DNA of 54,099 bases from an uncultured Erysipelotrichaceae bacterium (lineage in GTDB: Bacteria > Bacillota_I > Bacilli_A > RFN20 > CAG-826), in assembly GCA_902800025.1 (NCBI GenBank), contig CADCDA010000009.1:1-54099 (forward strand), written 5' to 3'. This document shows positions 22,091-23,652 of this stretch, one piece after another. The translations under genes were made by a program, and so were the position numbers. A model generated the notes under the pieces. It was not told the origin of the DNA. It did not search any database and was given only the letters and a program-made list of their open reading frames with translations. Numbering within the stretch: the stretch's first letter is position 1; the number at the start of each line of letters is the position of its first letter.

Positions 22091-22837
22091 TTAGATTTCT
22101 TCGATTATTTTTAATCCGATATCAAGTTTTATTAAATCGTGATTGGCGGAATGTAGAAGAGATTTATCATAATCTCCTTCAATTAAAACATCACCTGGTT
22201 GTAAAAAGTCATAGAGTTCAAGCTTGAAATGATTGGCTACCGCCTGGCATGCTGCCAGTTCCATTTCCACCACTATACAGCCTTCTTCTTTTCTCTTTTT
22301 AACTTTGTTAACTGTTTCCATCAAAAAACCATCAGTAGTCCAAGTTTTACCTTTCACATATGGAATATTTAACTTTTTAAAGACTGCTTCGACTTTATCT
22401 GCGTTATTGATTTTTACGAAATCACTAGGAGGCATGAAGTGATATGACGTTCCCTCATCGCGATATGCTTCAGTAGGAATAACGAATTTTCCTTTGGTTA
22501 CTTCTTTATCTAGTGTTCCACAAGAACCAAACATAACAAATTTGGTAGCACCAGTGATATGAGCACACTCTGCAATATTACCAGCACATAAAACTGAGCC
22601 CATCGGTGCAAGATACACTCCAATTAATTCACCTTTGTATTCAAATGCATAGATAGGGATTCTATAAGATGAACCACCAATTAATCCAACTTGTTTAAGT
22701 TCATAATGCGATTGAACGTGCTCAAATATCTCACGTGACAAAAGAACAAGGCATTTATCCAAAATATGTCCTTTTTCTCCATAAAAATACTCTAACTTAA
22801 GTATTGGCTCACTAGTATCAAAAGAATCGATAATCAT
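22091..22837 (-). CDS. Nucleoside phosphorylase family protein
   Basis: The 248-residue protein carries the phosphorylase-fold motifs GSCGTLDKEV (phosphate-binding loop region) and VVEMELAACQAVANH, the ribose-binding glutamate signature of the uridine/purine nucleoside phosphorylase superfamily. It would cleave nucleosides with phosphate to base and ribose-1-phosphate, but base preference cannot be read. A separate clear deoD occurs at 30.6 kb, so this may act on pyrimidines or another ligand. There is no Shine-Dalgarno, and an extended -10 (TGCTATAAT) ends 8 bp before the ATG. Confidence 0.8.
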   Translation of the reverse strand: MIIDSFDTSEPILKLEYFYGEKGHILDKCLVLLSREIFEHVQSHYELKQVGLIGGSSYRIPIYAFEYKGELIGVYLAPMGSVLCAGNIAECAHITGATKFVMFGSCGTLDKEVTKGKFVIPTEAYRDEGTSYHFMPPSDFVKINNADKVEAVFKKLNIPYVKGKTWTTDGFLMETVNKVKKRKEEGCIVVEMELAACQAVANHFKLELYDFLQPGDVLIEGDYDKSLLHSANHDLIKLDIGLKIIEEI

Positions 22838-22860: not shown

Positions 22861-22889
22861 GAAAAATAAAAACATCTCTAATGAGACGT
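22861..22889 (-). terminator. Terminator of the structured RNA
   Basis: On the minus strand ACGTCTC pairs with GAGATGT around ATTA, followed by TTTTATTTTT. It lies 23 bp upstream of the nucleoside phosphorylase start, so it could equally be the expression platform of a riboswitch. Confidence 0.8.
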
Positions 22890-23033
22890 TATTATTTGTC
22901 AAGCAGGCCAGCCTAATTAAGGAAACTACTTAATCGTTCCAGGTGTTACGTGGATTCGGTTTCCCCCTGCATCGCTTTGTGCCATTCAAGAGAATGCGCC
23001 GTGGTCGTTACGCTGAATTTCCACCTTTGACAA
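22861..23033 (-). ncRNA. Structured RNA of unknown class (small RNA or riboswitch)
   Basis: The ~170-nt transcript is bounded by a sigma-A promoter and a U-tailed terminator, and holds no ORF. The first bases UUGUCAA (23027-23033) are exactly complementary to UUGACAA (22896-22902), closing the molecule. Inside, AGG/CCU and CAGC/GCUG continue the stem, GCAUUC/GAAUG form a hairpin with loop UCUU, GUGG/CCAC form another, and GCAGG can pair with CCUGC. It is more G+C-rich than its surroundings, as expected for structured RNA. I could not match it to SRP RNA, 6S, tmRNA, RNase P or a known riboswitch. Confidence 0.6.
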
Positions 23034-23037
23034 CGAT

Positions 23038-23065
23038 ATTATATCATTATATCAGCGCACATCAA
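23038..23065 (-). promoter_or_regulatory. Promoter of the structured RNA
   Basis: On the minus strand TTGATG (23060-23065), 16 bp, TATAAT (23038-23043); a second TATAAT lies at 23046-23051. The predicted start is near 23031, at the base of the closing stem. Confidence 0.65.
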
Positions 23066-23119: not shown

Positions 23120-23164
23120 GTGAACCCAAGTTGGCAAATGGAGCCTTCCTCGGTTCATTTTTTT
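23120..23164 (+). ncRNA. Candidate ~45-nt hairpin RNA with built-in terminator
   Basis: From the predicted start at G23120, TGAACC (23121-23126) pairs with GGTTCA (23152-23157), with further pairs inside. T7 follows at 23158-23164. The RNA overlaps the 3' end of the convergent PBECR-like gene by about 10 nt. It may be a small RNA or simply a terminator whose upstream AT-rich DNA resembles a promoter. Confidence 0.4.
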
Positions 23165-23652
23165 ATAGTTATTTTGCTTTTAGGAATATTATTTATATAA
23201 TTGTCCAACTTTTTCTTAGGATATAAAGTAACTACTTTGTTGATGTTTGCGTTACGATTTAAAGTTAAAGGAGAACCTGTTTCTACTATTGCGATGATTG
23301 GATCTCCACAGCTAGCAATTATGCTTGTCACAATAACAAATCTAGTTCCATACACACTTACTATGCATCTAGTGTTTTGCAAATCGTGCAAAGAGTCATA
23401 AATCTCTTCTGGTGAAAGACCATGAAAATTGTGCTTGCCCTTAGCTCCTAACGGTTGCATACATTCCCATAGCGTTTTACTAGTAATAAAAAGAGAACTC
23501 TTTCTAAAAACATTAATATCTAAGTTGTCATTAATATTTTTTAAATGAGAATTAAGTAACTCAATATCAAAAGGAACATAATCATTTGTTTTAAAGGATT
23601 CAAATGCTTTAATTGCCTCTTTTTTATTGCCGAGATTGATTTTGCGTATCAT
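23155..23652 (-). CDS. Stand-alone PBECR/MuF-C-like nuclease-domain protein
   Basis: The start at 23652 (MIRKINLG) is preferred because it follows ATGACA, 17 bp, TAATAA and 7 bp, while earlier ATGs lie in the promoter. The 165-residue protein contains FITSKTLWECMQPL, HNFHGLSPEEI and CIVSVYG...FVIVTSI, then VVTLYPKKKLDNYI. This order matches the C-terminal domains of phage MuF and polymorphic toxins (Phage-Barnase-EndoU-ColicinE5-RelE superfamily) as I remember them. Nuclease activity is inference. No phage genes surround it. Confidence 0.5.
   Translation of the reverse strand: MIRKINLGNKKEAIKAFESFKTNDYVPFDIELLNSHLKNINDNLDINVFRKSSLFITSKTLWECMQPLGAKGKHNFHGLSPEEIYDSLHDLQNTRCIVSVYGTRFVIVTSIIASCGDPIIAIVETGSPLTLNRNANINKVVTLYPKKKLDNYINNIPKSKITIKK

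Follow-up and report, generated by a model that had tools for sequence, protein, structure and literature searches.

Within a 54,099-nucleotide stretch of DNA from an uncultured Erysipelotrichaceae bacterium (hereafter the window), positions 23033 to 22896 of the minus strand encode a structured RNA that is freestanding, with a promoter and an intrinsic terminator of its own. Comparison with its homologues suggests, with a probability that we put at roughly two in three, that this RNA serves as antitoxin in a type III-like toxin-antitoxin module with reversed gene order, whose toxin would be a BECR protein of a family that we call c0. By this reading c0 would be toxic and an active RNase, the RNA would bind it directly and neutralise it, and the pair may have a role in defence.

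In the window, a promoter (23038–23065, minus strand; −35 TTGATG at 23065–23060, a 16-bp spacer and −10 TATAAT at 23043–23038) lies at an offset that is fixed among copies of the RNA, its −10 element ending 4 nt before the start of the RNA core (22896–23033, long form, delimited by sequence and homologue comparison). The core is closed by a stem, P1 (TTGTCAA at 23033–23027 with TTGACAA at 22902–22896), and is followed by an intrinsic terminator (22861–22890) consisting of 8 bp, one of them a G-U pair, and a T-run that recurs among copies. An earlier sequence-only reading of this DNA had proposed the same promoter, closing stem and terminator, all of which read on the minus strand as claimed. 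It had also described the region as richer in G+C than its surroundings and free of ORFs, and both descriptions agree with our data (G+C of 0.478 in 22896–23033 versus 0.25–0.40 around it; within the RNA, no ORF on the sense strand reaches 20 aa). Folded as a single sequence, the window RNA is within chance (z −1.83, with 15/200 shuffles folding equally well), and the case for the RNA therefore rests on the comparison of homologues.

The homologues share a plan in which P1 closes the molecule and P2 (GUGG/CCAC), P3 with its hairpin (AUUC...GAAU) and P4 (GCAGG/CCUGC) branch from it, while the loops of P2 and P4 form a kissing pseudoknot through their CAGC and GCUG segments, respectively. This kissing pair is swapped in other copies for GAGC/GCUC, CGGUG/CACCG or UAGC/GCUA. 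The long form, to which the window RNA belongs, carries an additional hairpin domain inserted within P4. Across 23 short forms, 96.3% of cells were paired and 16 of 26 pairs had double changes; across 29 more diverse sequences the values were 93.1% and 21 of 26, with the kissing pseudoknot included. In the latter set, 130 cells were changed on both sides (34.8 in shuffles), the observed covariation score was reached by 0/500 shuffles, and pairing dropped to about 29–50% in every slid register. P2 is nearly invariant and gained just two double changes, and the unpaired bases AAAGG and CGACCACG are conserved. Three of the internal pairings in the sequence-only reading (CAGC/GCUG, GCAUUC/GAAUG and GCAGG/CCUGC) thus covary in homologues, but its AGG/CCU does not stand, as that region pairs instead as GUGG/CCAC. 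The strong covariation among the collected homologues, which neither shuffles nor slid registers could match, bears out the structured RNA that had been proposed.

Searches against the Rfam 15 families returned no match for the window RNA at the gathering threshold and no relevant match at E up to 10; diverse homologues, searched up to E = 1, had none either. Since neither SRP, 6S, a riboswitch nor any other family was matched, known Rfam classes were dropped as candidates, and the description of a small RNA of no known class holds in the light of the fixed promoter distance, the terminator and the covariation. A survey of human-microbiome RNAs from 2021 contains thousands of unnamed candidates, which could include relatives (PMC8040213).

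By blastn, 27 of 144 related genomes had matches, frequently more than one each, and some of these were just terminator-like pieces. Scanning named genomes for the pattern yielded 50 stretches, of which nearly all are labelled as MAGs of uncultured gut or rumen Bacilli. A refined model (R3), applied to 279 genomes of the order, detected the RNA in 71, all within the window’s family of uncultured gut and rumen Bacilli, at one to seven copies per RNA-bearing genome. It is missing from about 70% of the family’s genomes, on which ground a housekeeping RNA was dropped. A class-wide sample added one more candidate (L113, in another family, E 1.2e-4) that is built on the same plan and in which P1 also serves as terminator; L114 (in G617) was rejected as a chance match within coding sequence. 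The RNA occurs as a short form of 88–96 nt, as the long form of about 133–150 nt and as a third variant with an insertion in the P2 arm, and long and short copies are sometimes joined head to tail ahead of one terminator. Variants with the P2-arm insert (GGTGGAGATGTACGTCC...) were seen at L180, L182, L187, L189–L191 and L199, some of which also carry the P4 insert. Solitary RNAs with promoter and terminator, without c0, were seen in species of one genus (L165, L166, L167, L174, L175 and L176), at least three of them behind what seems to be the same gene, and these are perhaps retained as trans-acting antidotes.

Leaving aside copies placed immediately behind another one, 57 copies were compared: in 50, a TATAAT-like −10 element with at most one mismatch ends precisely 4 nt ahead of P1 (55 when two mismatches are allowed). 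A T-run lies within 53 nt past P1 in 55/62 copies. The patchy spread and the copy number would suit a mobile or selfish module, although searches showed no connection to phages or plasmids: plasmids contained no match to the RNA, the sole phage match was a terminator-like one in a Bacillus phage, and viral contigs had none in a pattern scan. A phage or plasmid element was dropped after these negatives. A gene cassette or integron, considered when copies first appeared in arrays, was likewise dropped once the fixed arrangement of −10 element and terminator and the association with the toxin had emerged.

The conserved neighbour of the RNA is the gene upstream of it, which encodes an RNase-like protein. 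Clustering of neighbouring ORFs resolved this gene as one small protein family of ~120 aa, c0, which at many loci ends 12–42 nt before P1 on the same strand. An independent protein search of 224 genomes of the family located c0 at 66 places, with the RNA 21–112 nt downstream in 63 of them and on the same strand in 63/63. The exceptions comprised a diverged RNA on the same plan (G023, with P1 GUAGCAAUA/UAUUGCUAC, CAGC/GCUG and a terminator), a c0 gene cut short by TGA near a contig end (G201) and a c0-like gene with another possible RNA beside it (G074). In G074 (contig C3, L204) the c0-like gene is diverged, and downstream of it lies a different sequence, closed by GTGATAA/TTATCAC, that is possibly another RNA. 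A protein match in G461 was rejected, as it lies inside an unrelated glycosylase-like protein. The neighbour-ORF clusters contained no second small gene recurring beside c0 that might encode a protein antitoxin.

The linkage is one-sided. The RNA is common without c0, c0 is almost never found without the RNA, and broken c0 genes lie beside the RNA (at L142, and with in-frame stops at several places), a pattern that points to antitoxin and toxin. RNA distance also tracks c0 distance (Mantel r 0.87, 0/2000 permutations, n = 29; 0.89 within short and 0.92 within long forms), a co-divergence that would be expected from mere linkage as well.

The c0 protein gave sub-threshold Pfam matches to BECR families (PBECR3 0.019, MuF_C 0.0032), and searches of Pfam, NCBIfam and PADLOC matched no ToxN, CptN or TenpN family, which does not imply exclusion from them. 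An AlphaFold2 model (pLDDT 90.8) consists of helices followed by a four-stranded core, and comparison with known structures ranked BrnT first (Z 6.5, 76/77 residues), followed by RelE, HigB, YoeB, ParE and CDI toxins. The top 16 structural matches were all BrnT/RelE/YoeB/HigB/ParE-type or CDI toxins; ToxN-fold toxins were not among the matches, a result that again implies no exclusion. Foldseek alone gave no significant match and all structural Z values were below 8, so the match is suggestive: the predicted fold of c0 appears closest to the BrnT/RelE/HigB and CdiA-CT RNases (BECR), with top matches uniform in kind.

In the proposed antitoxin mechanism, the c0 toxin would normally be encoded just upstream of the RNA on the same strand, each from its own promoter. 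The compact kissing-loop RNA would fold, bind the toxin and block it, as ToxI does with ToxN, and the RNase would be released if RNA synthesis ceased, whether through phage attack or because the locus is lost. Tight linkage and co-divergence fit any specific RNA-protein pair, and the RNA and the BECR protein might instead be the components of a functional ribonucleoprotein, with the RNA as cofactor, guide or processed substrate rather than inhibitor; the conserved unpaired bases suggest a binding surface, and the solitary RNAs are conserved. We regard this as rather unlikely, since the RNA often occurs without the protein and the reverse almost never, which is the direction expected of an antitoxin and its toxin, and since the known relatives of the c0 fold are mostly toxins.

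Two observations speak against an antitoxin: c0 is missing directly upstream at about half of the RNA places, and several solitary copies occupy similar positions across the species of a single genus, which could reflect a toxin-independent function. If the RNA were a stand-alone regulatory small RNA with a merely secondary link to the RNase gene, the promoter and terminator that it possesses would be accounted for, as would its many solitary copies, some of them at conserved chromosomal places, and the L113 candidate, which lies in another family without c0. Its absence from about 70% of the family’s genomes and its presence at 63/66 c0 places make this quite improbable. Type I-like control, in which the RNA would base-pair with the toxin mRNA and block translation, is compatible with an RNA that adjoins the toxin gene and with a toxin mRNA that is probably leaderless. 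We consider it very improbable, however, because the RNA and toxin genes lie on the same strand, conservation resides in structure and not in an antisense stretch, and the duplex energies between the RNA and the 5′ region of its own c0 gene equal those of swapped and shuffled partners (−24.36, −24.37 and −24.41 for own, swapped and shuffled, respectively; n = 14). The one-sided linkage and the lack of RNA-mRNA pairing beyond controls favour, we infer, direct RNA-protein inhibition as in ToxIN (PMC5086642). The alternative offered by the sequence-only reading, a riboswitch (or attenuator) of the downstream gene that senses a nucleoside-related ligand, has in its favour a riboswitch-like architecture (promoter, compact pseudoknotted fold and terminator ahead of a gene) and a downstream gene on the same strand in 44/56 copies, but it is scarcely credible given that this gene differs among copies and lies on the opposite strand in 12/56, that no regulated gene is conserved, that inspection of the listed copies by eye revealed no pairing mutually exclusive with the terminator (an antiterminator), and that the gene in the window has a −10 element of its own.

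That gene (22091–22837, minus strand), which owes the name nucleoside phosphorylase to the sequence-only reading, has TATAAT 7–8 nt ahead of its ATG, and the missing ribosome site noted earlier is perhaps explained by the gene being leaderless. With neighbours varying among copies, it is outside the RNA system. Leaderless-looking genes, with a −10 element about 6–8 nt before the start codon, were seen in the window at 22837 and 23652 and also among c0 genes.

Turning to the antitoxin reading at the window itself, a protein search found no c0 in the window’s genome assembly (95% complete), which counts against that reading in so far as the function of this copy would be indirect. The long form lies elsewhere behind an L048-type toxin; here, as at L079, it lies behind c10, a second BECR-like gene (23155–23652, minus strand; identified from sequence, Pfam and predicted fold) that is intact, probably leaderless and encodes a MuF_C-like protein of 165 aa. 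Its Pfam match to MuF_C (E 1.4e-5) falls just under the cut-off, and CdiA-CT, BrnT and RelE rank first for its predicted model. At the c10 stop codon begins another RNA motif (23121–23157, minus strand), UGAACC...GGUUCA with an inner hairpin GGC/GCC, copies or variants of which follow most c10 genes examined, sometimes in pairs. The inner hairpin covaries in a small set (n = 12), and the motif may be a separate RNA antitoxin family. With a c10 gene, a c10 motif and a solitary c0-type RNA, the window looks composite; its solitary RNA might counter c0 toxins that are incoming or unlinked, or may itself be a remnant. Motifs of the c10 type were also seen at L215, L216, L217, L219 and L228–L231, in some cases with another conserved stretch (CTACCGTTTGAAGATGTACC...GGGCCC) behind them.

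The broader proposition, on which we are evenly divided, is that uncultured Bacilli harbor a new class of toxin-antitoxin systems in which BECR RNases are held by RNAs: a kissing-loop RNA with its own promoter for one toxin family, a short hairpin RNA in the 3′ region for MuF_C-like toxins, and solitary copies that maybe act as antidotes in trans. The BECR RNase superfamily is known so far with protein antitoxins, and control by RNA would be new; RNA antitoxins have been described, in the literature searched, for ToxN-like toxins, AvcD and AbiF. If true, the type III principle would be widened to a large superfamily of toxins (RelE/BrnT-like RNases), natural co-varying pairs would offer a defined problem of RNA-protein recognition, and toxin genes without a protein antitoxin would be worth checking for a downstream RNA.

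Among known systems, the predicted fold of c0 and c10, along with the weak Pfam matches to PBECR3 and MuF_C, resembles BrnTA, RelBE and HigBA and the PBECR/MuF-C proteins. Type II BECR toxins have protein antitoxins (PMC11980606), whereas no recurrent second small gene was found beside c0, and the literature searched, with partial coverage, describes no BECR toxin with an RNA antitoxin. In type III systems, the RNA lies upstream and consists of short repeats, and one promoter serves it and a ToxN-like toxin (PMC5086642). Our module shares with ToxIN, CptIN and TenpIN a gene for an RNase-like, putatively toxic protein adjoining a small structured pseudoknotted RNA, an intrinsic terminator and RNA modules that are sometimes in tandem. 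It differs in that the RNA lies downstream of the toxin with its own −10 element, giving two promoters, whereas theirs lies upstream with one promoter and a terminator in between; in that the RNA is a kissing-loop molecule of 88–180 nt in one or two modules, against H-type repeats of 34–50 nt (PMC5086642, PMC12373285), with no short tandem repeats and at most a long and a short form in direct tandem; and in that c0 is predicted to resemble BECR proteins (BrnT/RelE) and not the ToxN family. At L240 (G601:C28), which belongs to a different family of the class, a stretch that is possibly structured and a terminator lie ahead of a BECR-like gene, as in the classical type III order. The AbiF/RCd22 system of Clostridioides difficile, where the RNA binds and counteracts a growth-inhibiting protein (PMC12373285), likewise has, next to the protein gene, a structured non-coding RNA with a promoter and terminator of its own, but its protein is of the Abi_2 (Cas13-related) type, its RNA lies upstream and the RNA motif is different. 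Finally, AvcID, in which an RNA antitoxin blocks a deoxycytidylate deaminase (PMC10511110), differs in both toxin and RNA and shares with the module proposed here the principle of an RNA as antitoxin of an enzyme toxin.
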